Assembly (NCBI RefSeq): GCF_019218885.1 | Contig: NZ_JAHUWT010000003.1 | Span: 806,001 to 870,000 of the forward strand | Length of the DNA stretch: 64,000 nt | From: Bordetella sp. BOR01 | GTDB lineage: Bacteria > Pseudomonadota > Gammaproteobacteria > Burkholderiales > Burkholderiaceae_B | Direction of reading: 5' to 3' | In this document: piece after piece, positions 2 to 40,895 of the stretch | How positions within the stretch are numbered: position 1 is the stretch's first letter | How the letters are laid out: every line of letters starts with the position of its first letter | Translations under genes and position numbers: made by a program | The notes under the pieces: model-generated | Told to the model about the DNA's origin: nothing | The model's input: the letters and a program-made list of their open reading frames with translations, nothing else | Databases searched by the model: none

Positions 2-2272
2 CTGCCAGAGACAGACACCGGTTGCGTGGACCTCCAGACCCTGATCCCGGACGCACACGCCAGCTACAACGGCAACCAGCAGCGCCTGGACTTGAGCGTG
101 CCGCAGCAGTACCTGGCTGCGGTGCCACGCGGCTATGTGGCGCCATCACTGCGCGATCAGGGCATCAATGCGGCGTTCCTGAACTACAACCTGACCGGCA
201 TGCACAATCACCAGAAGCAGTCTGGCCGTTCGGACTATTTCTATGGCTCGTTCGGCAGCGGCATCAACCTGGGAGCCTGGCGCCTGCGCCATAACGCCAC
301 GGTCAACCATGAAAGCCACGGCACCGGCACCCATTGGCGCAACCAGAACACCTGGGCCGAACGCGACCTGCAATCCATCCGCAGCCGCATGCTGCTGGGC
401 GACGGCTTTACCAGCAACAGCGTCTTCGACAGCGTGCAGTTTCGCGGCGGTCAATTGGCCAGCGACGACGAGATGCTGCCCTACAGCCAGCGCAGCTACG
501 CGCCCGTGGTGCGCGGCGTGGCCGCCAGCAGCGCGCGCGTCGAGATCCGCCAGGACGGCAACCTGATCTATGCCGTGAACGTGGCGCCGGGCCCGTTCCT
601 GATCAACGACATCGTGCCCAACCGCATGAGCGGCGACCTGGAGGTAAGCGTGATCGAGGCCGATGGATCGGTGCAACGTTATCGGCAAGCCTTCTCGGCG
701 GTGGAAACCATGCTGCGTCCTGGACTGTGGCGCCACGAAATCAGCGCCGGCGAACTGCGCAATGGCTACGCACAATATCGTCCGGTTTTCCTGCAAGGCA
801 CGGTCGCACGCGGGCTGGAAAGCAACACCACGCCCTACGGCGGCCTGCTGCTGGCCGAGCACTATGCGGCCGCCGCGCTGGGCGTGGCGCAAAGCCTGGG
901 CGAATTCGGCTCGGCGTCGGTGGATGTGACCGCGGCGCGTACCAAACTGGCCAATGGCGACATCAAGACGGGCCAGAGCTATCGTTTCTTGTATTCCAAA
1001 TCGCTGAACGACCTGGGCACTGAGTTCCGCCTGGTGGGCCACCGCTACTCGACCGCGAACTACTACGATTTCAACGATGCGGCCGCCGAACGCGACCGCT
1101 GGCGCAACGGCTATTATGAAAGCGCTTACTGGGATCCGCGCGGCTTCGACGACGGCACCCCCGCCTGGGCTTCGTCGCATGAGCGGTACGCGTACAGCAC
1201 CCGCTACTACAACAAGCGCAATCGCCTTGACCTGGCGATCAACCAGCGCCTGTCCGACCAGGTGTCTCTCTACGCCAACTACAGTAACCAGACCTACTGG
1301 GGATCGGGCGACAAGGCACGCGACATCCAGGTAGGCCTGAACGGCCGCATCAAGACCGTGAACTACGGCCTGTTCTTGCGCGACACACGCAGCCAGCATG
1401 GCTACAACGACCGCATGGCGGGGGTGAGCATCGCGATTCCGCTGGGCCGGCGGGAACGCTCGCGCCTCAGTTCCAGTTCGTCGTACACCCATTCACGCGA
1501 ATCGGGTAGCAACATGCGAACGGGCATCAATGGCACCGCACTGGACGACAGCCGCCTGGCCTATGGCATGAATATCGGCCATTCGGATTCCTCGGGCGCT
1601 TCCGGCTCGGCCAACGTGGCCTACCAGGGCGGCAAGGCCGCCATCAGCGCCGGCGCCGCGTCTTCCGAACAGTACAGCCAGTTCAATTGGGGCTTGAGCG
1701 GCGGCCTGCTGGCGCACGGTGGAGGCATGACGTTCAGCCAGCCGCTACAGCGCACCATCGCAGTGGTGCATGCGCCCGGCGGCGCCGGCATCGGCATCGA
1801 GAACCAGGCTGGCGTACGCGTGGACGATGACGGTTATGCCGTGGTCCCGGGCATGAGCCCGTATCGCTTCAACCGCGTGGCATTGCGCACCGATGACCTG
1901 GGGGGCGATATCGATGCCAGCAAGGTCGCGGCCAATGTGGTGCCGACGCGCGGCGCGATCGTGCGCATCGATTTCGATACCCGGCGCGGCAACAGCCTGA
2001 TGATCCGCAGCACCCGCTCCAATGGCCAGGCCGTGCCGCTGGGCGCCAATGTATTCAACGCCCAGGGGCTCAATCGCGGCGTGGCAGGCCCGCAGGGCCA
2101 GATCTTCGTCAGCGGCGTGCAACCCGGCGACGTGCTGTCGGTGCGCTGGGGCGACGCCGAAGACGAGGGCTGCCTGCTGGACCTGGGCAGCCTGCCTGCC
2201 GCGCGGCTGGATGCGTCCAGCACAGGCTACCAGCGCGTCGAATTACTCTGCCGCCCGCAAGGGCGGCCCTAA
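2..2272 (+). CDS. Fimbrial outer-membrane usher, 5' truncated by window edge
   Basis: The protein is the outer-membrane pore of a chaperone-usher pilus; it accepts chaperone-subunit complexes and threads the growing fimbria outward. The frame is open to the first bases of the window, so the GTG at 26 is internal and roughly the first 80-100 residues are missing from the view. Visible features are the usher middle/plug region (motifs PVVRGVA and GPFLINDI), a long run of alternating beta-barrel strands rich in Tyr, Asn and Ser, and a C-terminal region with a Cys pair (GCLLDL and VELLC) typical of usher C-terminal domains. A fimbrial tip protein follows 11 bp downstream. The pair resembles Bordetella FimC-FimD. 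The family is clear; the pilus type is inferred. Confidence 0.93.
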   Translation: MPETDTGCVDLQTLIPDAHASYNGNQQRLDLSVPQQYLAAVPRGYVAPSLRDQGINAAFLNYNLTGMHNHQKQSGRSDYFYGSFGSGINLGAWRLRHNATVNHESHGTGTHWRNQNTWAERDLQSIRSRMLLGDGFTSNSVFDSVQFRGGQLASDDEMLPYSQRSYAPVVRGVAASSARVEIRQDGNLIYAVNVAPGPFLINDIVPNRMSGDLEVSVIEADGSVQRYRQAFSAVETMLRPGLWRHEISAGELRNGYAQYRPVFLQGTVARGLESNTTPYGGLLLAEHYAAAALGVAQSLGEFGSASVDVTAARTKLANGDIKTGQSYRFLYSKSLNDLGTEFRLVGHRYSTANYYDFNDAAAERDRWRNGYYESAYWDPRGFDDGTPAWASSHERYAYSTRYYNKRNRLDLAINQRLSDQVSLYANYSNQTYWGSGDKARDIQVGLNGRIKTVNYGLFLRDTRSQHGYNDRMAGVSIAIPLGRRERSRLSSSSSYTHSRESGSNMRTGINGTALDDSRLAYGMNIGHSDSSGASGSANVAYQGGKAAISAGAASSEQYSQFNWGLSGGLLAHGGGMTFSQPLQRTIAVVHAPGGAGIGIENQAGVRVDDDGYAVVPGMSPYRFNRVALRTDDLGGDIDASKVAANVVPTRGAIVRIDFDTRRGNSLMIRSTRSNGQAVPLGANVFNAQGLNRGVAGPQGQIFVSGVQPGDVLSVRWGDAEDEGCLLDLGSLPAARLDASSTGYQRVELLCRPQGRP

Positions 2273-2283
2273 GGAAACCCGTC

Positions 2284-3324
2284 ATGTTCCAGAGCTGGAT
2301 CTCAACCGTCACTTTGGCCGCGGCGCTGCTGGCCGCACCGCACGCGGCCCTGGCCTTGTCCTGCAAAGATGCCCAGAATGAATCGATCCGCAGCGTCATC
2401 GCCTTGGACAAAGACATTTTTGTGTCGACCGGCGATATCGTCCCAGGCAAGCTCCTGTGGCGCTCGTTCAACTACACCGTGAGTTTTCGCTGCGTGGATG
2501 ACTACGAGCAGCCATACGGCGAAAGTGCCTATCTGTATTGGGATCCCGTGCAGGTCCTGGGAAACATCCATCCGTCGATCGAGGTAGGCGTGACGTACCA
2601 ATCTGTCGATTACAAGCCTACCGTTAACGGCCGCGTCCTTGCAGGCGCAGCCACGACGCCACCGTCCAACAAGAGCAACTGCACGCAGTACTGGAACAAA
2701 TCCACGGCCCCTGCATGCGCCACGTCACAGGTCATTACCGTCACGTTCTCGGTCTACATCAAGGCGACAGGAGCTTCGCCGCCCCCCGGCGGCCAGATCA
2801 CCGATACAGGCACATACGATCTGTTCCAGGTCGACGGCGTGGCGAACCTGAATGCCAAGCCCGATTCCAATTTTCGCGCGGCGATTTCCGGCCTGGAGCG
2901 CATACGCTTCATCGCCTGCAATCCCGAGATCACCGTAGTGGCCAACGGCGGTTCAGCGGTGCAGTTTGGCAGGATTGCGGCCAGCGGGGCGCAGCCTGGC
3001 GCGGTGGCGCGTTCGGTACCCTTTGCCGTGGAAATCAACATGAGCGGCCCCAACGCAGGCGACGAGTGCCATGGACGGTCTCTGGTGGGCAGTTTCAGTA
3101 CCTCACATACCGTCATAGACAAAACCACCATCCTGCCTGACAACGACAGTGGCTTTGGCATCGTAATGACCCCAGCCGACCACCCCTTGGCTGCAGTTCC
3201 GATGAATACGGCAATGGCGCTGAATGCCGTGAACAACTTCATCGCATCGCTGAAATGGCTGAGCAATACACCGCGCATCGGACCGTTTCAAGCCAGCGCC
3301 ACGCTTGACGTGTCGTTCCGATAA
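2284..3324 (+). CDS. Fimbrial tip adhesin / minor pilin, FimD-like
   Basis: This 346-residue secreted protein follows the usher gene and is probably the tip adhesin of the same pilus. It has a signal peptide ending near residue 25 (ALALS), an N-terminal domain of about 170 residues with two internal Cys-containing loops, and a C-terminal pilin-like domain starting near residue 200 (RIRFIACNPEITV). That domain ends in alternating hydrophobic strands (ATLDVSFR) as expected for donor-strand pairing. Two-domain architecture and length fit FimD-type adhesins rather than a major pilin of about 200 residues. The receptor cannot be predicted. The gene lies convergently against the next gene, with 27 bp between their stops. 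Confidence 0.8.
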   Translation: MFQSWISTVTLAAALLAAPHAALALSCKDAQNESIRSVIALDKDIFVSTGDIVPGKLLWRSFNYTVSFRCVDDYEQPYGESAYLYWDPVQVLGNIHPSIEVGVTYQSVDYKPTVNGRVLAGAATTPPSNKSNCTQYWNKSTAPACATSQVITVTFSVYIKATGASPPPGGQITDTGTYDLFQVDGVANLNAKPDSNFRAAISGLERIRFIACNPEITVVANGGSAVQFGRIAASGAQPGAVARSVPFAVEINMSGPNAGDECHGRSLVGSFSTSHTVIDKTTILPDNDSGFGIVMTPADHPLAAVPMNTAMALNAVNNFIASLKWLSNTPRIGPFQASATLDVSFR

Positions 3325-3351
3325 CGGATACTTGGAATCGGCGGATCGTGT

Positions 3352-4242
3352 CTAGCCGGCAAAGCCATACAAGCGGGCCGGATTGTCCACCAGCACGCGC
3401 TGCCTGACTTCGGCCGGCGCCCAGCGCGACAACAGATTGCACAGTGCGCCGTCGTCGGGCATGCGGTCTGCCTGGTAATAGTTGATGTGCGGCCAGTCGG
3501 TTCCCCACACGACCTGTTCGCTGTTGGCCTGCAGGATGGCCTGCGCGAACGGGTCTACGTCGCGGTAAGGCGGCCCGCTGCTTGTATTGCGGTCGGCGCC
3601 GGATATCTTGGCCCAAAGGGCGCCCTGAGCCAACTGTTGGCACAAGAACCGGAAGCCAGGGTCATCCACGCCACGCTGCGTGCTCATGCGCCCCATGTGG
3701 TCGATGACCAGCGGCAAGTTCAAGGCCTTGAGCGCCGGCATGAGTTCCGGCAGATCGGGCGCATGTACCCAGATTTGCGCGTGCCAGCCCCGCGCCGCCA
3801 GGCGGGGCGCCAGGGCCTGCAGCACCTCGAGCCCCACGCCATTGCGATACACGGTCTTGCCATCCAGCCGGTACAGGTTGGCGCGCACACCTCTTACACC
3901 GGCTTCGGCATAGCGGTCCAGTTCGGCGTCGCGCAGGTCCAGGCGGGGCACGATCACGCCACGCAGGCGTTGGGGGTAGCGCGCCAGCGCGTCGAGCACG
4001 ATGTCGTTGGCGGTGCCAGACGCGCTGCCGGTGACCAGCACGCCGCGATCCAGCCCCAGCTCGTCCAGATGCGCAATGAAGGCCTCGGCCGGATACGCTT
4101 CGGGTGTGTAGCTGCGTTCTTTGTCCAGCGGAAACCGGTCGAACGGCCCGAAGATGTGCGCATGCGCGTCACAGCTTCGGGGCGGCGGCGCGAAATCAAG
4201 CGCCTGGGCTTCGGTACGCGCGGGCAAGCAGGGTCGGGTCAT
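3352..4242 (-). CDS. Amidohydrolase family protein, 2-pyrone-4,6-dicarboxylate hydrolase-like
   Basis: A 296-residue TIM-barrel hydrolase of the amidohydrolase_2 family, close in layout to LigI-type 2-pyrone-4,6-dicarboxylate lactonases. The metal-binding HxH lies in CDAHAHIFGP near residue 26, a conserved DHMGRM occurs near 181, and GTDWPH near 249 supplies the catalytic Asp. The length is normal for the family. The neighbour immediately upstream on the same strand is a Bug-type receptor (8 bp gap), so the two probably form one operon that takes up and hydrolyses an organic acid lactone. LigI substrate specificity is not proved; many family members act on other lactones. Confidence 0.82.
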   Translation of the reverse strand: MTRPCLPARTEAQALDFAPPPRSCDAHAHIFGPFDRFPLDKERSYTPEAYPAEAFIAHLDELGLDRGVLVTGSASGTANDIVLDALARYPQRLRGVIVPRLDLRDAELDRYAEAGVRGVRANLYRLDGKTVYRNGVGLEVLQALAPRLAARGWHAQIWVHAPDLPELMPALKALNLPLVIDHMGRMSTQRGVDDPGFRFLCQQLAQGALWAKISGADRNTSSGPPYRDVDPFAQAILQANSEQVVWGTDWPHINYYQADRMPDDGALCNLLSRWAPAEVRQRVLVDNPARLYGFAG

Positions 4243-4250
4243 GTCGGTCC

Positions 4251-5231
4251 TTAATCAGCGGCAAGTTTGCCTTGGGCATCCAGGGCGCGGGCGGTTTCCA
4301 GTTCAGCGGCCAGTATCCGCTGCCATTGGCCGGGCGTCACCACCAGGGCAACGCTGCCCGAGCCATGCAGGCGCTCGCGTACCGTGGCGGCCTGCAAGGC
4401 CTGGTTCAGTGCGGCATTCAGTTGCTTGATAGTGTCGCTGGGCGTGCCGGCCGGGGCCACCAGGCCGGACTGCGTCATGGAAGTGAATCCGCCCACGCCT
4501 GCCTCGGCCAAGGTAGGCACATCGGGCAGGAAGCGGTCGCGCTCGGCTGACAGTACGGCCAGGCCGCGCAGCTTGCCCGCCCGGATATTGGCGTACGAGC
4601 TCGTCACCTGATCGACAATGGCGTCGATCTGCCCCCCCAGCAAGGCCGTGATGGCCGGCGCCGAGCCCTTGAATGGCACGGCGGTGAAATGGCAATGCGA
4701 CGCCTCTTCGAGCCTGAGCAGCGCGATATGGTTAGTGGTGCCCAGCCCGGAATGCCCGACCGTGACGGCATCTTCGTGGCGCCGTGCCTCGTCGAGCAAC
4801 TGTGCCATGGTCTGGAACCGGCCTTTCGGATTCACCGCGACGACCTGCGAGGCCGACCCCAGTCCGCCCACGGCGGCGAAGTTCTTCAAGGTGTAGTCCG
4901 TATCGACCATGAAGGGCGCCACGGTGATCGCGTTGGGCGTGGTTACCAGCAGGGTGTGGCCGTCGGGCGCCGCACGCGCGACCAGGCTGGCGCCAATGAC
5001 ACCGCCCGCACCGGGCTTGTTCTCGATGACTACCGGCATGCCCAGCGCGGCCCCCAGCTCGGGCGCGACCGCGCGCGCCACGGTGTCCAGATTGCCGCCC
5101 GGCGAGAAAGGCACCACCAGCACGATGGGCTGGCCGTTATTGAATGCCGGGGACTGAGCCCGGGCCGGCGCCGCCCCCGCCAGCAGCGCCGGCGCCATGC
5201 CGGCGGCCGCACAGAATCGCCTTCGGTCCAT
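4251..5231 (-). CDS. Bug-type tripartite tricarboxylate transporter substrate-binding protein
   Basis: A 326-residue periplasmic receptor of the Bug/TctC family, which binds small carboxylates for secondary TTT-type uptake or for sensing. An N-terminal MDRRRF followed by a hydrophobic stretch and an AQS cleavage site near residue 26 looks like an export signal. The Bug fold hallmarks are present: IVLVVPFSPGG near 36-46, VIENKPGAGG, and a late PAGTPSDTIKQLN segment. The RBS-like CCAGGAG lies 8 bp ahead of the ATG. The gene is downstream of the IclR regulator on the same strand. No TctA or TctB membrane partner is visible, which is common for expanded Bug families. Confidence 0.93.
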   Translation of the reverse strand: MDRRRFCAAAGMAPALLAGAAPARAQSPAFNNGQPIVLVVPFSPGGNLDTVARAVAPELGAALGMPVVIENKPGAGGVIGASLVARAAPDGHTLLVTTPNAITVAPFMVDTDYTLKNFAAVGGLGSASQVVAVNPKGRFQTMAQLLDEARRHEDAVTVGHSGLGTTNHIALLRLEEASHCHFTAVPFKGSAPAITALLGGQIDAIVDQVTSSYANIRAGKLRGLAVLSAERDRFLPDVPTLAEAGVGGFTSMTQSGLVAPAGTPSDTIKQLNAALNQALQAATVRERLHGSGSVALVVTPGQWQRILAAELETARALDAQGKLAAD

Positions 5232-5295
5232 GCTGCGTCTCCTGGTCCGTTATAGGTATTGTCTTGGCGGGGTTGGGAACACGCCGTGGCCCCGA

Positions 5296-5316
5296 GGGCC
5301 CTGCCGGCCCTTTTTT
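5296..5316 (+). terminator. Terminator-like hairpin on the strand opposite to its neighbours
   Basis: GGGCC, a five-base loop and GGCCC are followed by six T residues on the plus strand. Both flanking genes (IclR and Bug) run on the minus strand, so this element would stop antisense transcription rather than close either gene. The stem is only 5 bp, so it may be fortuitous. Confidence 0.35.
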
Positions 5317-5366
5317 CAGGATAAGTAGCGCTGCCTGCCGCCGGTAGTTGCCGATGACTCAAGAGG

Positions 5367-5385
5367 GCTTCACGTTTCGTGAAGC
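5367..5385. promoter_or_regulatory. Inverted repeat GCTTCACG-TTT-CGTGAAGC
   Basis: A perfect 8-bp inverted repeat with a three-base loop lies 25 bp past the IclR stop and about 135 bp upstream of the Bug start at 5231. It could be a hairpin at the 3' end of the IclR transcript or an operator for the Bug gene. No U-run follows it on the minus strand, which weakens the terminator reading. Confidence 0.4.
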
Positions 5386-5409
5386 ACGCCCAGGCTGCGG
5401 TGCCACGCA

Positions 5410-6234
5410 TCAGGCCCAGCCCAAACGGGATGTCAGCGCCCCCACGCCTTCGCGCAGCAGCGCCACCCAGCCCGGCAGCTTGGCGGCATCGAAACGGAAG
5501 TCGGGCACGGTGAGCGTCAGGTTGCCCCGTATCTGGCCCTGGTTGTCGAAAAAGGGCACGGCAATGCCATGCGCTTCGGGTGCGCGTTCCGCATAGCTGA
5601 CGGCATACCCCTGTTGCCGTATGCGTTCTAGCGCCGCGCAGAGTTCGGTGGCCCGCAAAGGCCGACCGTTCAAGGGCGAGGGCTCGGCACGGCGGATGAC
5701 TTCATCGATTTCCTGCGGCCCGAGAAATGCCAGCAGCGAACGCGCGGTGGCGCCCCAGCTCAGGGGCTGCAGGCGATTGTGCTGGATGGTGTAGCGCAGG
5801 GGATGCGCGGGCGAGGCCGACAGCGAGAAGTACATCTGCAGTTCGGCGCGATCGAGCAGCGCCAGGATGACGGTTTCATCGGTGCGGTCGCGCACATCGC
5901 GCAGAATGGGCTCGGCCAGTTGGTTCAGCGGCATTTCCGATGCCAGCTTGCCCGCTAGCCGGTACAGCGCCAGCCCCGGCCGATACAGGCCGTCGTCGTC
6001 TTGCATGACGTAGTTCAGCGGCTTGCACAGGCCCAGCAGCCGATGCGCGGTTGCCTTGGGCAAATTCAGTGCCCGTGCCAGGTCGTTGAGCCCCCAGCGT
6101 TCTTGCTCGGCGAAGCAACCGAGCAAGCGCAGCACACGATTGACGGTGCCGCTGTCGCCGCCGCGCGGCAGGGTAGGCAGGGCAGCGGCCAGCGAAACCG
6201 CAGGCTTGTCGGCCGATGATTCATCAGATACCAT
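5410..6234 (-). CDS. IclR family transcriptional regulator
   Basis: A 274-residue IclR-type regulator. The winged helix-turn-helix lies near residues 28-85 (SGTVNRVLRLLGCFA, then LNDLARALNLPKATAHRLL), followed by the GAF-like ligand-binding domain with ETVILALLDRAE and the late AVPFFDNQGQIRGNLTL segment. The start at 6234 (ATG, MVSDES) was chosen because the family N-terminus begins just before the HTH; the longer in-frame extension upstream has no family character and would cross the divergent promoter. The gene is divergent from the MmgE/PrpD operon with an 87-bp gap holding a strong palindrome. It probably responds to the aromatic or dicarboxylic substrate of the cluster. Confidence 0.93.
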   Translation of the reverse strand: MVSDESSADKPAVSLAAALPTLPRGGDSGTVNRVLRLLGCFAEQERWGLNDLARALNLPKATAHRLLGLCKPLNYVMQDDDGLYRPGLALYRLAGKLASEMPLNQLAEPILRDVRDRTDETVILALLDRAELQMYFSLSASPAHPLRYTIQHNRLQPLSWGATARSLLAFLGPQEIDEVIRRAEPSPLNGRPLRATELCAALERIRQQGYAVSYAERAPEAHGIAVPFFDNQGQIRGNLTLTVPDFRFDAAKLPGWVALLREGVGALTSRLGWA

Positions 6235-6321: not shown

Positions 6322-7647
6322 ATGACCGCCTCTCTTTCCCGGATGCTCGGCCAGTTCGTCCATGACACCCGTTTCGACGACCTGCCCGATCACGTCGTCG
6401 ACCTGGGCAAGGCCTGCTTGCTGGATGCCCTGGGCACCGCTTACGCGGCGCGCCATCTGCCGGTACCCGGCATCGCCCGCCGGTTCGTCGGCCACAACGC
6501 GGGCAGGGCGGTCGTCATTGCCGGCGGCCAGCGGGTTCCGGCGGTAGACGCGGCCTTTGTCAACGCCACGCTGGTCAATGGATGCACTCACGACGACTTT
6601 CTGCAGAAATCGCATCCGGGCGCCGTCGTGGTGCCGGCGGCCCTGGCCGTGGCCGATGAACAGAACTGCTCGGGTGCAGAGCTGTTGACTGCGATCGTGC
6701 TGGGCTATGACCTGGTGGCGCGCGCCTACCTGGGCGGCCCCGGCATGCTGCCCGCCTTTCGCGCCACGGGCGTGGCCGGCGCCATCGGCGCGGCGGGCGC
6801 GGCGGCCAGGCTATTGGGCCTGTCGGCCGAGCAAACCGCCCATGCCCTGGGCTGCGCGGCAATGTTCGCGTCCGGTTTCGGCGAAGGCTTCCGGTCGGGC
6901 ACCACCGAAGTCAAGCTGAATGTGGGCTGGGCCAGCCGCAGCGGCGTGTCGGCCGCCCAGCTTGCCCAGGCCGGCGCCACGACATCGCCGACGGTTTTCG
7001 AGGGCGAGTCGGGCTATTACCAGGCCTTTGCGCGCACGGCGCGGCATGCGGATGCGGCCGTCCAGGACCTGGGGGAACGGTTCCTGATCGAAGACACGGT
7101 CTACAAAGAGCGCCCCGTCTGCGTCTTCGTGCAAACGCCGGTGCAGCTTGCGCATCAACTGGCCAGCCAGCACCAGCTGGACGCCCAGGGCATCACGCGC
7201 GTTACGGTACGCGCGCCCGAACTGACACTGAGCAATCCCGGCTACCAGAATGTGGCGCCCTATGCATCGCCGCTGAAGGCGCGCATCAGCGCCCGGTTCA
7301 CGGTGGCGGCGGCCCTGTTGGGCCGGCCCGTCGACACCTATGCCTACTACGACAACACCGGCGACGGCCCGGTGCTTGCCCTGGCCGAAAAAATCCACTT
7401 GCTCGAGCCCGAGCCCGGCCAGGGCGGCCGGGTCGACGTGCAGATCACCTGCAACGGCGTCGGCTACTCAGCCTCGGGCCAGGAAATGGACACCCTGAAA
7501 CCGACGGCGGACAAGGTCGTCGCCAAATTCCGGCGCCTGACCGCCGACCTGGCCCCTGAAAAAACCGAACGCCTGCTGCAAACGGTGCTGGGCCTGCAAG
7601 ACCTGCAACAGATCGATGGGCTGAGCGCGCAGTTGGAGACGCTGTGA
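6322..7647 (+). CDS. MmgE/PrpD family protein
   Basis: A 441-residue member of the MmgE/PrpD family, which includes 2-methylcitrate dehydratase, cis-aconitate decarboxylase and iminodisuccinate epimerase. Characteristic segments include LGKACLLDALGTAYAAR near 33-50, FVNATLVNGCTHDDF near 87-101 (the family usually has an ANG.. .H.DD-like element) and KLNVGWASRSGVSAAQLA near 195-212. Length is normal. It is the first gene of a plus-strand run through a Bug receptor, hydrolase, racemase-like, OCD-like and FAD oxidoreductase genes, so it is more likely a catabolic dehydratase or isomerase for the cluster substrate than PrpD of the methylcitrate cycle; no prpB or prpC is nearby. Confidence 0.9.
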   Translation: MTASLSRMLGQFVHDTRFDDLPDHVVDLGKACLLDALGTAYAARHLPVPGIARRFVGHNAGRAVVIAGGQRVPAVDAAFVNATLVNGCTHDDFLQKSHPGAVVVPAALAVADEQNCSGAELLTAIVLGYDLVARAYLGGPGMLPAFRATGVAGAIGAAGAAARLLGLSAEQTAHALGCAAMFASGFGEGFRSGTTEVKLNVGWASRSGVSAAQLAQAGATTSPTVFEGESGYYQAFARTARHADAAVQDLGERFLIEDTVYKERPVCVFVQTPVQLAHQLASQHQLDAQGITRVTVRAPELTLSNPGYQNVAPYASPLKARISARFTVAAALLGRPVDTYAYYDNTGDGPVLALAEKIHLLEPEPGQGGRVDVQITCNGVGYSASGQEMDTLKPTADKVVAKFRRLTADLAPEKTERLLQTVLGLQDLQQIDGLSAQLETL

Positions 7648-7701
7648 TGCCAGTCTTGCTTGTCGATGATTCCTTCACAACGACCACCACAGGGAAGAAT
7701 C

Positions 7702-8670
7702 ATGAAACCCATACGCTTCATTTCAGCCAGCCTGGCGGCCGCCGCCTGCGTGTCGGCAACCGCCGCCCATGCCGCCTACCCTGACAAGCCCATCGTGCTG
7801 GTGGTGCCGTTCGCGCCAGGCGGATCCACCACTGTGGTGGCACGCGCGGTGGCCGAGCGCGCCGAGAAACTGCTGGGCCAGCCCATCGTCGTAGAAAACA
7901 AGCCCGGCGCCGGCAGCGTGGTGGGAAGCAACGTCGTCGCCAAGGCCGCACCCGACGGCTACACCTTGCTGGTGGGGCAGACCGGTTTCGCGGTGAATGA
8001 TTCGCTGCGCAAGAACCTGCCCTACGACACGCTCGAAGACTTCACCCCGATCGCACTGCTGGCTGACCATCCGGGCGTTTTCCTGGCGCAGGCGCAGAAG
8101 CCCTACGATACCTTCGAGCAATTCATTGCCTATGCGAAGGCGAATCCGGGCAAGGTGACCTATTCATCGGCCGGCGTGGGCAGTTGGCCGCACCTGTCGA
8201 TGGCCATGTTCGCCAACGAAGCCGGGCTGTCGCTGGTTCACGTTCCGTATCAGGGTACCGGGCCGGCCAAGGCCGACCTGGTGGCGGGGCGTGTCGACGT
8301 CAAGATCGAGGCTTATGCGACATCGCGCGCCATGGTCGAAGACGGCCGCCTGAAAGTGCTGGCCGTCACCAGCACGCAGCGGGCCGCCGAACTGCCCGAC
8401 AAGCCCACGATCGCCGAGTCCGGCTATCCCCGCTACGAGACTTCATACTGGATAGGCATTCTGGGTCCGGCAGGACTGCCGCCCGACATCGTTGCCAAAT
8501 TGCAGCAGGCCTTCACCACCGCGGCCAAAGACCCCGCTGTGATCGCGCAAATGGAACAACAGAGCATCGTGCCGCGCGGGCTGCCGGCGGCCGACCTGGA
8601 TACGCTGCTGAAGAAAGAAATTGCCAAGTGGCGGCAGGTGATCGAAGACAGCAACATGGAAAAACAATAA
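7702..8670 (+). CDS. Bug-type substrate-binding protein
   Basis: A 322-residue periplasmic Bug/TctC receptor. The ATG at 7702 is preferred over an in-frame start 42 bases earlier because it directly begins a signal peptide (MKPIRFISASLAAAACV, cleavage near AHAA) and follows AGGGAAG. Family hallmarks are YPDKPIVLVVPFAPGG, VENKPGAGS and GPAGLPPDIVAKLQQAF. It lies 54 bp after the MmgE/PrpD gene and 12 bp before the hydrolase gene, so it probably delivers or senses the cluster substrate. The ligand is unknown. Confidence 0.93.
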   Translation: MKPIRFISASLAAAACVSATAAHAAYPDKPIVLVVPFAPGGSTTVVARAVAERAEKLLGQPIVVENKPGAGSVVGSNVVAKAAPDGYTLLVGQTGFAVNDSLRKNLPYDTLEDFTPIALLADHPGVFLAQAQKPYDTFEQFIAYAKANPGKVTYSSAGVGSWPHLSMAMFANEAGLSLVHVPYQGTGPAKADLVAGRVDVKIEAYATSRAMVEDGRLKVLAVTSTQRAAELPDKPTIAESGYPRYETSYWIGILGPAGLPPDIVAKLQQAFTTAAKDPAVIAQMEQQSIVPRGLPAADLDTLLKKEIAKWRQVIEDSNMEKQ

Positions 8671-8682
8671 GGACGCCATGCC

Positions 8683-9519
8683 ATGACTACCGATCCGGAT
8701 TTTGCGGTGGACGACACTCTCCTGGCGTTTCGCGTGGACGACTTTACCGACGGGTGGATCGACGCGCCCCAGGTAATGCTGCTGCACGGCATCGCCGAAT
8801 CGGCCGAGGCGTTCAATGGCTGGGTACCGCACCTGGCCCGCCATTGCCGGGTCATCCGCCCGGACCTGCGCGGCCACGGCCGGTCGGGCCCGGTGCAAAA
8901 GGGCGAAACGCTGAGCGTTGCCAGGCTGGCCGACGATGTGCAGGCGCTGGCCAACCATCTGCGGCTCGAGCACGTGCACGTCGTGGGCGCCAAGCTGGGC
9001 GCGCAAGTGGCGCTGGAACTGGCGCAGCGCCGCGCGCCGTGGATGGTGTCGCTTACGCTGGCCGGCGTGCTGATCTCGCCGGCCGATGCGCTGGGCAAGT
9101 GGCTGGTGCAATGGATGCAACTCGTGGACGAGCAAGGCGTGGAAGGCTGGGCACGCGCGACCATGCCAGGGCGCATGGGCGCCGCCTTGCCCGCCGCCGG
9201 CCTGGCCTGGTGGACCGAATACATGGGCCGCACACAGGCCGAGACTGCCAGGGCCTGCTTCCGCTTGATTGCCGCGTCGCGAGAACCGCGGGCGCTGGAG
9301 CAGATATGCTGCCCCACCCAGGTGATCGCGCCCGTGCAGCCCGGGCAGGCCGCCGCGTTCAAGCAGCAGCCCTCGCTGGATGAAGTGCGCCGCTGGCTGG
9401 CGCGCATACCCGGCGCGCGGCTGGTCGAGCTACCGGCCGATTCGTACCATATCGCGGCCACGCATCCGGACGACTGCGCGGCCTTGACGGCAAAGTTCAT
9501 CAAGGAGCACACATCATGA
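8683..9519 (+). CDS. Alpha/beta hydrolase fold protein with atypical nucleophile elbow
   Basis: A 278-residue alpha/beta hydrolase-fold protein. The oxyanion-hole HG (VMLLHGIAES near residue 30) and the DLRGHGRSG segment near 63-71 are clear, and a His near the end (ADSYHIAATHP) matches the catalytic His. The nucleophile elbow, normally GxSxG, reads GAKLG near residue 106 (HVVGAKLGAQVAL), so Lys replaces Ser. The acid after strand 7 is also not obvious (PTQVIAPVQPGQ). The protein may be a lyase, a decarboxylase-type fold user or inactive. It overlaps the next gene by 4 bp, so translation is coupled. Substrate unknown. Confidence 0.85.
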   Translation: MTTDPDFAVDDTLLAFRVDDFTDGWIDAPQVMLLHGIAESAEAFNGWVPHLARHCRVIRPDLRGHGRSGPVQKGETLSVARLADDVQALANHLRLEHVHVVGAKLGAQVALELAQRRAPWMVSLTLAGVLISPADALGKWLVQWMQLVDEQGVEGWARATMPGRMGAALPAAGLAWWTEYMGRTQAETARACFRLIAASREPRALEQICCPTQVIAPVQPGQAAAFKQQPSLDEVRRWLARIPGARLVELPADSYHIAATHPDDCAALTAKFIKEHTS

Positions 9520-38157: not shown

Positions 38158-38811
38158 ATGATGAATCCCACCTCGCCCGAACGCGTCCGCCAAGATTGCC
38201 GCCTAATCGGCCAGACGCTGCTGAAACTGGCGCTACCCAGGCTGCTGATCCGGGCGGTGGTACTGGTCGTCGCCGCCATCGTGTGGCTACTGGTCGCCTC
38301 GTGGCTACTGGACTTCGGCCGCAGTCTATCGTTTGACAGCCTGCAGGCCCTGGGCCAGCAAACCAGCGACTTCCTGGCGCGCATCAATCCCTACGTGTGG
38401 TGGGGCGTGGTGGTGATCTGGACCCTGATCGTATTCTTTATCGTGCGTGCCTGGGTCGGCTCCGACATTGCCGCGGCGCGGGCCCGGCCAGTGCCCTCGG
38501 CCGATCTGGCCACGCTGGCCTCGCAATTGTCTGACGAAGTCTTGTCAGTGCTGCGCTGGGTATGGGGCAGCCGCGACGAACCCTTCACCGTGGGCGACCT
38601 GCGCCAGGCCCTGGCCGAACTGCGCCACAGCCGCATCGGCAAGATGGACCTGGTGCGCCAGCAGGGCGACATCCTGGAGGGCCGGGCCGCCCGCCAGCAA
38701 CCGGCCGGCGGCCCGTCGCAGGCGCAGCCGCCCATCGTGCCACCCAGCTCTCAAGCCACCGCCCAGCCCGACGCCCGCCCCGCCGGGACCCGCATCGAAC
38801 CCAACTTGTAG
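38158..38811 (+). CDS. Hypothetical membrane protein, two transmembrane helices
   Basis: A 217-residue protein of unknown function, divergent from rpoN with only 16 bp between start codons. Helix 1 is near residues 30-52 (LIRAVVLVVAAIVWLLVASW) and helix 2 near 79-100 (VWWGVVVIWTLIVFFIVRAW). A soluble C-terminal domain of about 75 residues (LSDEVLSVLRWVWGSRDEPF, then TVGDLRQALAELRHSRIGKM) precedes a Pro/Ala/Gln-rich tail. A second ATG is directly adjacent (38161). It may be an inner-membrane regulator; nothing more can be said. Confidence 0.75.
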   Translation: MMNPTSPERVRQDCRLIGQTLLKLALPRLLIRAVVLVVAAIVWLLVASWLLDFGRSLSFDSLQALGQQTSDFLARINPYVWWGVVVIWTLIVFFIVRAWVGSDIAAARARPVPSADLATLASQLSDEVLSVLRWVWGSRDEPFTVGDLRQALAELRHSRIGKMDLVRQQGDILEGRAARQQPAGGPSQAQPPIVPPSSQATAQPDARPAGTRIEPNL

Positions 38812-38822
38812 GCCTTTTTGAT

Positions 38823-38844
38823 GCCCCAGCCGTTGCGCTGGGGC
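38823..38844. other. Stem-loop GCCCCAGC-N6-GCTGGGGC
   Basis: A perfect 8-bp stem with loop CGTTGC lies 11 bp after the preceding gene, flanked by TTTTT on its left and AAAAA on its right. Those flanks extend the stem rather than provide a U-run, so it is a stable hairpin and not a canonical terminator on either strand. Confidence 0.5.
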
Positions 38845-38869
38845 CAAAAATGTGTTCGACTAACGGCTT

Positions 38870-38995
38870 ATGGCCGATATCCGATTCCCCCTCGCGATTG
38901 CCTCCGGACGCCTCAGCGCGCCGGGCGCCGGCCTGCGCGCGTCCCTCTCCCCCATCGCGCTATCGCTATACCTACCGATCGGTTGCCGGGCCTAG
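38870..38995 (+). CDS. Candidate leucine leader peptide upstream of leuA
   Basis: A 41-codon frame opens with ATG at 38870 and closes with TAG at 38993. Codons 31, 33 and 35 are CTA (38960-38974), the rarest leucine codon in GC-rich genomes; two further Leu codons are close by. A stop (TAA at 38861) precedes it in frame, so ATG is the only start. GCGCTA (38957-38962), inside the Leu run, can pair with TAGCGC (38993-38998) at the stop, and CTTGTGG (38999-39005) with CCACAAG (39026-39032) just after. No strong ribosome-binding site is visible. It fits an attenuator leader for leuA but is not proved. Confidence 0.45.
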   Translation: MADIRFPLAIASGRLSAPGAGLRASLSPIALSLYLPIGCRA

Positions 38996-39185
38996 CGCCT
39001 TGTGGTAGCTCGGCAGCCACGCTCGCCACAAGCCTGTTCCCCGTTCATTGCTTTGACCCCAGCCGGCCCATCCATGGCTTGCTGACGGCCCCGGACCATT
39101 ATCCAGGCCTGCCGAACAGGGACCCCCGGAACCGAACCCGGAATCCATCCCGCCACACATCGGGAATATTGATCAAGGTGTACTG
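38996..39185 (+). promoter_or_regulatory. Remainder of the leuA leader region
   Basis: After the possible leader peptide, the leader carries CTTGTGG/CCACAAG (38999-39032) and an imperfect GC stem near 39063-39100 (CCGGCC with GGCCCCGG). No U-run typical of an intrinsic terminator and no clear promoter were seen by eye. AAGGTG lies 6 bp before the leuA ATG as ribosome-binding site. Confidence 0.4.
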
Positions 39186-40895
39186 ATGCTTGCCAACCCC
39201 GCTACCAAATACGTACCGTTCGCGCCGTTCGCGCGCGATTTCTCTGAACGCACCTGGCCCAGCCGCCGCATCACCCAGCCGCCCATCTGGATGAGCACCG
39301 ACCTCCGCGATGGCAACCAGTCGCTGATCGAACCCATGAGCGTCGAGCGCAAGCTGCGTTTCTTCGAGCAACTGGTCAAGATCGGCTTCAAGGAAATCGA
39401 GGTGGGTTTCCCCGCGGCGTCGCAAACCGACTTCGACTTCGTGCGCAAGCTGGTCGACGAAAAACGCATCCCCGAAGACGTCACCATCATCGTGCTGACC
39501 CAGTCGCGCGAAGACCTGATCAGCCGCACGGTAGAAGCCGCGGCCGGCGCCAGGCAAGCGATGGTGCACCTGTACAACGCCTGCGCGCCGGCGTTCCGCA
39601 AGGTGGTCTTCAACATGAGCAAAGACGAGATCAAGCAGATCGCCGTCTCGGGAACGCAGTGGATCAAGCAATACATGGGCCAGCACCCGGAAACGCAATG
39701 GCGCTACGAATACTCGCCCGAGGTCTTCAGCACGACCGAACCTGAGTTCGCGCTGGAAGTGTCCAACGCCGTGGCCGAGGTCTGGGACGCCACGCCGCAG
39801 CGCAAGATGGTGCTGAACCTGCCGGCCACGGTCGAGGCCACCACGCCCAACCTGTACGCCGACCAGATCGAGTGGATGCACAAGAACCTGGCGCGCCGCG
39901 ACAGCATCATCGTAAGCGTGCACCCGCACAATGACCGCGGCACGGCCGTGGCGGCCGCCGAATTCGCCGTCATGGCGGGCGCCGACCGCATCGAAGGCTG
40001 CCTGTTCGGCAGCGGCGAACGCACCGGCAACGTCGACCTGGTGACCCTGGCGTTGAACCTGTATTCGCAAGGCGTGCATCCGGGCCTGGACTTCTCGGAC
40101 ATCGACGAAGTGCGCCGCTGTGCCGAATACTGCAACCAGCTGCCCGTGCACCCGCGCCATCCGTATGCCGGCGACCTGGTATTCACGGCCTTCTCGGGTT
40201 CGCACCAGGACGCCATCAAGAAGGGTTTCGCACAGCAGCAGCCCGACGCCGTATGGGAAGTGCCCTACCTGCCCATCGATCCGGCCGACCTGGGCCGCAG
40301 CTACGACGCCGTCATCCGCGTCAACAGCCAGTCGGGCAAGGGCGGGGTGTCGTACCTGCTTGAACAGGAACACGGCCTGGTATTGCCGCGTCGCCTGCAG
40401 ATCGAATTCAGCCGCGCCATCCAGCGCGTTACCGATGAAACCGGACGCGAAGTCACGGCCGACGACGTGCACACCATTTTCAACCGCGAGTACCTGGAAC
40501 AGCACAGCCCGTGGAAGCTGGTGCGCCACCGCATCGATGGCGACCCGAGCGCAGGGCAGGGCAAGCAATTCAGCATCCAGGTCGAACTGGACTACAACGG
40601 CGAACGCCGCGTGGTGACCGGCAGCGGCGACGGCGCCATCTCGGCCTTTGTTGCGGCCCTGGACGTGCCCGTGCGCATCATGGACTACCACGAACATGCC
40701 ATCGGCACCGGCACCGACACGCGCGCGGCCAGCTATGTCGAACTGCGGGTGGGCGACTCGGCCACCGGCTTCGGCGTGGGCATCGACCGCGATATTGTCA
40801 CCGCCTCGTTCCAGGCCGTGCTCGGCGCCGTGAACCGGCACCTGGCCCATGGCTCAGCAACGCAAACCGAAAGCGAGACCGCCCAGGCCGCGTGA
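39186..40895 (+). CDS. leuA: 2-isopropylmalate synthase, long form
   Basis: A 569-residue enzyme that condenses acetyl-CoA and 2-oxoisovalerate to 2-isopropylmalate, the first step of leucine synthesis. The HMGL-like domain has the catalytic DLRDGNQSL at residues 39-47 and the metal-binding [10 protein letters not shown] near 241-250. [17 protein letters not shown] is typical of the long (type 2) form. The C-terminal LeuA regulatory domain runs from about 430 to 555 and should bind leucine for feedback control. Length is complete. A strong terminator follows. The candidate leader peptide upstream suggests attenuation as well. Confidence 0.97.

Follow-up and report, generated by a model that had tools for sequence, protein, structure and literature searches.

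The leuA gene of Bordetella sp. BOR01 is preceded by a leucine-rich leader frame and by an RNA element that is backed by covariation and has no match in Rfam 15. This leader is probably, though by no means certainly, a leucine-responsive translational attenuator of leuA that is built like the LEU element of Actinobacteria. The analyzed window, a 64,000-nucleotide stretch of contig NZ_JAHUWT010000003.1 (positions 806,001 to 870,000), comes from a genome of 6.18 Mb in 29 contigs, and the nearest named relatives at leuA were two Bordetella petrii strains with 96% protein identity. leuA (39186-40895, + strand) encodes a 569-aa 2-isopropylmalate synthase of the leuA_yeast type (TIGR00970, 786.9 bits versus a cut-off of 697.4), and the ORF upstream of it stops at 38811, leaving 374 bases for promoter and leader. 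A scan of 38780-39240 returned no consensus promoter. No Rfam 15 family matched in the window, and three hits in 38812-39210 lay far under the gathering score (E 1.8-3.9); a known Rfam family was ruled out on that basis as the identity of the leader. The preceding gene and the leuA promoter are separated by an inverted repeat (38815-38850; TTTTTG-AT-GCCCCAGC / GCTGGGGC-CAAAAA), after which the + strand has no T-run.

In the proposed mechanism, the leuA mRNA would begin at or just before 38870, and its leaderless or nearly leaderless ATG would be translated. With Leu-tRNA plentiful, the ribosome would cross a run of CTA codons and exit at the TAG at 38993-38995, about 20 bases past the last CTA. 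The CTA run and the GATC that follows it would then pair with the Shine-Dalgarno sequence and AUG of leuA in a base stem (P0), beside a pseudoknot of two helices (S1 and S2), and leuA would be silent. Under leucine shortage, the ribosome would stall on the CTA codons and so occupy the very stretch that otherwise masks the leuA start, so that P0 could not form, leuA would be translated, and more LeuA would be made at low leucine. The pseudoknot perhaps holds P0 together. The transcript start, stalling, the direction of control, and the contribution of the pseudoknot are the parts of this scheme that we infer.

The leader ORF (38870-38995, + strand; ATG at 38870) has 41 codons and encodes MADIRFPLAIASGRLSAPGAGLRASLSPIALSLYLPIGCRA. 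It contains the stretch CTA-TCG-CTA-TAC-CTA (38960-38974, + strand), in which codons 31 (38960-38962), 33 (38966-38968), and 35 (38972-38974) are the proposed sensing Leu codons; the frame and its three CTA codons are present as the initial annotation described them. CTA was also confirmed as a rare codon here, accounting for 41 of 1,600 Leu codons (2.6%) in 39 window ORFs (mechanically called, at least 250 codons, overlaps below 100 bases), and at this rate the probability of three or more CTA codons among 41 is about 1.3e-4. For comparison, the best 80 of 310 leuA relatives were kept with their upstream DNA, together with eight further genomes of the genus. The 24-base core between the last CTA and the stop codon was found with at most four mismatches in 79 of these 80 loci, the 80th (L082) being a sequence that begins inside the element and retains only its 3' part. 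Within the window's own genome the core occurred at a single place at up to three mismatches, with no extra copies.

Comparison of relatives also revealed a conserved box, TGTGTTCGACTA (consensus TATGTTTGACTA; 38851-38862, + strand), which is likely the -10 region. A putative -35 hexamer, TTGCGC (38833-38838, + strand), is followed after a 17-base gap by TCGACT, a hexamer that reads TTGACT in relatives. TTGCGC was kept in 12 of 15 aligned rows; one row deviates and two are cut at that point. Among 80 sequences (the 79 loci and the window), 71 had the box, at up to four mismatches, with an ATG close behind, and the spacing was 5 to 7 bases in 67 of the 71. This ATG was in frame with the core, with no intervening stop, in 69 of the 71, for which chance would predict one third, and 32 to 61 codons precede the last CTA; in the two failures (L075 and L077) the ATGs lie 0 to 1 bases behind the box. 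The frame and its Leu codons are thus kept in relatives, the opposite of what the initial annotation had named as refuting it. Elsewhere in the Alcaligenaceae, the Leu codons form uninterrupted CTA/CTG runs, versus the alternation with TCG and TAC in the window. A conserved leader frame with a Leu (CTA) run before leuA probably means leucine control by ribosome stalling, and this half of the earlier proposal is supported; the attenuator stem order proposed with it is not. By eye, eight loci (L102, L105, L106, L108, L109, L112, L114, and L116) seemingly carry a second Leu-rich short frame upstream of the element, as tandem leaders.

The fixed short distance from the promoter-like box to the ATG points to an mRNA that is leaderless or nearly so, with a transcript start near 38868, and this would explain the absent ribosome-binding site, whose lack had been remarked on from the window alone. 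The Streptomyces lividans leuA leader (MRFGLLLLSCRGEGL) is reportedly transcribed without a 5' untranslated region and has no typical terminator (PMC8079986), and in Mycobacterium abscessus a ribosome-protected frame upstream of leuA has been reported (PMC4974804). A literature search for the leuA transcript start of Bordetella or Cupriavidus found no data, and neither PMC4833913 nor PMC4117421 mentions leuA.

The sequence elements GCGCTA (38957-38962), TAGCGC (38993-38998), CTTGTGG (38999-39005), and CCACAAG (39026-39032) all lie where the initial annotation placed them, and comparison with relatives separated the two stems that it had built from them. All pairs of GCGCTA:TAGCGC were possible in no more than 5 of 32 distinct combinations (mean, 4.3 of 6 pairs), and it was rejected as a conserved stem. 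CTTGTGG/CCACAAG corresponds to the helix termed S2 here, one half of a pseudoknot whose main helix, S1, had been missed.

S1 was identified by RNAalifold and by covariation, and joins GGTTGCCGGGC (38981-38991) to GCTCGGCAGCC (39008-39018), both on the + strand. The plain MAFFT alignment comprised 58 sequences, namely the window and 57 of 59 distinct loci sequences (L042 and L043 were omitted for their long insertion), and in it S1 was the main helix, with 11 pairs and two further pairs inside. Pairing was maintained in 99.2% of 638 cells, and none of 500 shuffles reached the covariation score; both-sided changes were seen at one pair only, which 29 of the 500 shuffles also reached. A wider set of 69 matches, hand-picked among the collected loci and aligned to the model, paired in 98.7% of 748 cells and had both-sided changes at 4 pairs in 13 cells (0 of 500 shuffles), in an alignment that is fitted to S1 by construction. 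Slid controls produced both-sided changes at up to five pairs and in up to six cells, yet at most 50% of their cells paired.

S2 was found by complement search in relatives and consists of a 5' strand at 38999-39006 (core GTGGT, 39002-39006) and a 3' strand at 39025-39032 (core GCCAC, 39025-39029), again on the + strand. S1 and S2 cross and therefore form an H-type pseudoknot. Of the 69 sequences, 64 had an S2 complement when S2 and S1 were required to be a single base apart, and 68 had one when 0 to 2 bases were allowed (20% of shuffles), L103 being the sole sequence without one. The S2 letters are identical in most sequences and so carry little information; 5' strands that differ, however, have differing partners, with compensated forms GCGGC:GCCGC (L106 and L108), GCTGGC:GCCAGC (L111), and GCGAC:GTCGC (L114). 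When strands were swapped among sequences, the strands of others found a complement in 86 of 473 trials. Farther out, S2 candidates were GAGGAGC:GCTCCTC in Sinorhizobium meliloti (L137), GACGGCA:TGCTGTC in Rhizobium (L129), ACGGC:GCCGT in Shinella (L127), Ochrobactrum (L130), and L140, and GGTGCAC:GTGTACC in L139; at the eight loci beyond the reach of the model that were examined for S1 and S2, such S2 candidates are the best of several, and no full S1 complement was found in one of the eight, L144. In L042, L043, L115, and L116 the S2 complement sits at least 17 bases past S1 and is unconvincing. Overall, the comparison of sequences indicates that the S1/S2 pseudoknot is conserved, with fewer changed cases for S2 than for S1.

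The leader stop was located in the S1 loop in 58 of the 69 sequences and within the 5' strand of S1 in another 5. Two sequences had it past S1, and four had it at the leuA start or farther on (in one of these four, L114, the leuA start is misplaced, so that this locus was left out of the overlapping cases). The stop comes two codons earlier in L069 and L081, where S1 still pairs, and L009 and L010 have lost the TAG and read on for another 12 bases with the S1 helix kept. These cases point to the RNA, rather than the peptide end, as what is kept.

Two helices around a leader stop could also serve transcription attenuation, with S1 as the antiterminator on stalling and S2 as the terminator when the ribosome reaches the stop. 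A ribosome at a stop in the S1 loop, the position in those 58 of 69 sequences, would indeed cover the S1 5' strand, and T-rich stretches occur a few bases past S2 in L039, L057, and L079. The window itself, however, has no U-run behind S2, as had been observed before, and the scan of 38780-39240 returned no intrinsic terminator, with which that candidate before leuA was dropped. Moreover, the conserved S2 core amounts to five pairs, S1 and S2 share no bases and need not be mutually exclusive, and in L042 and L043 an insertion carrying GACGTTCGTC-like repeats puts more than 30 bases between the 3' strands of S1 and S2. We consider transcription attenuation unlikely.

The lack of an intrinsic terminator in the window would equally suit Rho-dependent attenuation, in which Rho, when no ribosome is stalled, would load on the untranslated RNA at 39033-39170 and halt transcription before leuA. 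The spacer from the leader stop to leuA is untranslated and spans 97 to 233 bases in the 79 loci with the core. It is also poorly conserved, and how a ribosome stalled upstream would protect it is not obvious, leaving this a quite improbable account of the control; Rho-dependent attenuation could nevertheless add to the translational model.

The remark in the initial annotation that control could be translational has gained support. In the minimum-free-energy fold of 38868-39215, bases 38959-38973 pair with 39176-39189, which span the Shine-Dalgarno sequence to the AUG of leuA, and GATC at 38977-38980 pairs with GATC at 39171-39174, directly followed by S1. The P0 5' strand (38959-38980, + strand), taken from this fold and its pair probabilities, thereby overlaps the CTA run; the 3' strand (39171-39189, + strand) was taken from the same fold, register counts, and masking. 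Within the 13-base register 38961-38973:39176-39188 of the window, pair probabilities were 0.89 to 1.00 at 11 of 13 positions and 0.28 at one, and the remaining position is a C:C mismatch. Across Bordetella and Achromobacter, a mean of 11.85 of the 13 positions paired over 13 distinct combinations (L010 was dropped as no start site was found), and shifting the leader strand by 1 to 4 bases gave 3.0 to 7.1. The mean register probability had a median of 0.82 in 20 hand-picked Bordetella and Achromobacter loci, of which five were low (L036 and L037, 0.02; L040, 0.25; L028, 0.40; L042, 0.44). A pairing of CGATCGGTT with the leuA start was considered as the whole story and rejected, as it is not kept beyond Bordetella and Achromobacter.

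Opening the leuA start of the window has a computed cost of 12.3 kcal/mol, which a 24-base mask on the Leu run lowered by 6.0 kcal/mol; masks elsewhere averaged 1.3 kcal/mol. The largest effect of any one mask, 6.4 kcal/mol, came from that beginning at 38970, and individual masks elsewhere reached up to 5.9 kcal/mol. A gain of at least 2 kcal/mol from masking the Leu run was obtained in just 9 of 17 hand-picked loci. The exceptions include L057 and L063, in which the leuA start is already open, L042, L162, and L167, which change by less than 1 kcal/mol, and L127, in which opening became harder. The pairing energy of the Leu run alone ranked 11th among 47 start regions in the window (10 of the 46 others were as good or better), that of a 36-base segment ranked 28th (27 of 46), and 7 of 100 shuffles folded as well as the leader (z, -1.69). 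For the window species, P0 and the masking effect are computational predictions.

If leader and leuA start co-evolve, own pairs should beat swapped pairs. They did so in 18 loci of family f253, which belongs to another class and has a leader resembling that of Sphingomonas (L128), with -17.5 kcal/mol for own versus -14.0 kcal/mol for swapped pairs (0 of 10,000 permutations), and again when four loci, three rhizobial records and L144, were added (0 of 10,000). Control segments in f253 gave 1,619 to 5,480 of 10,000 for neighboring segments and 8,046 of 10,000 for the segment upstream of the Leu run. Likewise, 14 loci from other families of the window's order averaged -15.1 kcal/mol for own versus -12.0 kcal/mol for swapped pairs (0 of 10,000), and their three neighboring control segments gave 7,134 to 9,203 of 10,000. 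This set derives from an earlier one of 18 loci (6 of 5,000 and 7 of 10,000) by removal of the four own-family loci L101, L113, L115, and L117; one beta control, the segment upstream of the Leu run, was excluded for its meaningless energies. The sequences in these swaps are related, so that the permutation values are not exact probabilities, and the controls share the same relatedness. Within Bordetella and Achromobacter (n = 22), where both partners are nearly invariant, the swap gave no support (4,671 of 5,000). It was weak in the other Alcaligenaceae (n = 45; 389 of 5,000), and the value for all 67 Alcaligenaceae pooled (0 of 5,000) is mostly a between-group comparison. As judged from these swaps, P0 co-varies in relatives outside the family.

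The near-invariance of the core letters, which extends to loop letters and codon third positions, might instead mark the pseudoknot as a binding site for a protein or small molecule, with translation of the leader secondary. A binding protein has been proposed and favored for the actinobacterial LEU elements; the study reported that leader mutations at Streptomyces leuA did not agree with classical attenuation and concluded that mutation of leucine codons was without influence on regulation (PMC1262725), all of which also speaks against the stalling model. What argues against a binding site here is that the Leu codons and their reading frame are kept, that the P0 pairing of the Leu run co-varies in relatives, and that stop codons shift while S1 stays; we regard this explanation as having a low probability. 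A further point against the simple form of the translational switch comes from three genomes of three families (L109, L112, and L116), in which the leader frame continues past the pseudoknot and stops exactly 7 bases inside leuA, so that stop and start overlap. This arrangement suggests translational coupling and is unexplained by the simple model.

When the S1 covariance model was searched in 399 genomes of the order, whatever their leuA type, the element was found in 25 genomes at 26 places, a count that takes in the window itself and both copies of G245, and all 26 places adjoin a leuA homologue. Two genomes of the same family, G011 and G385, gave no match to the model, and seven loci of family f232 (L158-L161, L165, L168, and L169) had no such leader by eye. 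The second match in G245 (L117) lies at a second leuA copy, and the element there is diverged and GC-rich.

The enterobacterial leuL is a transcription attenuator, in which Leu codons of a leader peptide, among them rare codons, precede leuA and sense leucine by stalling. The leader described here shares the leader peptide with codons for the pathway's amino acid, the rare codons, and the stalling logic. Unlike leuL, it has no intrinsic terminator that we could find, a pseudoknot takes the place of the classical stem order, and its leuA belongs to another subfamily (TIGR00970). The erm leaders are translational attenuators in which a leader ribosome, stalled by an antibiotic as the signal, exposes a hidden start. 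Here too a stalled leader ribosome would open a hidden start, but the proposed signal is a lack of charged tRNA, and the sensing codons would themselves be the hiding strand.

The closest counterpart is the LEU element of Actinobacteria, described with a Leu-run leader, a conserved pseudoknot, a base stem that joins the Leu run to the leuA Shine-Dalgarno sequence, and an alternative hairpin on that stem (Seliverstov et al. 2005, PMC1262725). The position upstream of leuA is the same, as is the leader ORF with its Leu run, in the window three CTA codons alternating with TCG and TAC. A conserved pseudoknot is likewise indicated, here by S1 covariation and the compensated S2 cases. The base stem has its parallel in P0, strongly predicted in the window and co-varying outside the family, with no swap support in Bordetella and Achromobacter and with absences in some Alcaligenaceae. 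The leuA subfamily is also shared, TIGR00970 being over its cut-off in all four actinobacterial and all six proteobacterial loci tested. In contrast, the leader has 41 codons here versus 13 to 16 in L119-L121, its codons are CTA versus CTT, CTC, and CTG in Actinobacteria, a long spacer places the Leu run about 210 bases upstream of the leuA start, and the base stem has two parts. No sequence similarity to the actinobacterial elements was detected, model R1 having no match in L119-L124, and the Leu run paired with the leuA start in one (L121, Microbacterium) of four actinobacterial plasmid loci that were folded.

Tentatively, and more as a possibility than as an expectation, these likenesses could reflect one ancient translational leucine switch that accompanies leuA_yeast-type leuA across Actinobacteria and Proteobacteria. 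Its Leu codons would be both sensor and hiding strand, and the pseudoknot topology would have been kept while its helices were rewritten. The switch would act over a long range (about 200 bases) in Burkholderiales, and in some lineages it would be rewired, the leader frame ending on the leuA start codon. Translational leucine control was put forward for Actinobacteria in 2005, but mutant data that conflicted with it kept the matter from being settled there (PMC1262725); we found no proteobacterial report of the element in open papers. If the leader described here is a translational attenuator, such control would extend to Bordetella, Achromobacter, and other Proteobacteria, and the rare CTA codons would gain a reason. 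It also makes a sharp prediction, as the sensing codons would be the bases of the hiding strand, so that codon identity and pairing could be separated by chosen changes.

Additional leader-like features were observed by eye in relatives. In f253 (L145-L157, L162-L164, L166, and L167) and in Sphingomonas (L128), the leader ends in LRLTRP or similar before the stop, and a strong stem, CCCTTAGGCG:CGCCTAAGGG, contains the stop codon; within f253, TTAGG:CCTAA of this stem becomes TTGGG:CCCAA in L150 and L156. Upstream of an Acinetobacter leuA (L131, about 279-362), a frame ending in LLMLRLARV is a possible counterpart. Finally, L055, L058, L062, and L079 have an extra hairpin between the pseudoknot and leuA, of the type TCACCG...CGGTGA, which is apparently compensated in L079 (TCACTG...CAGTGA).
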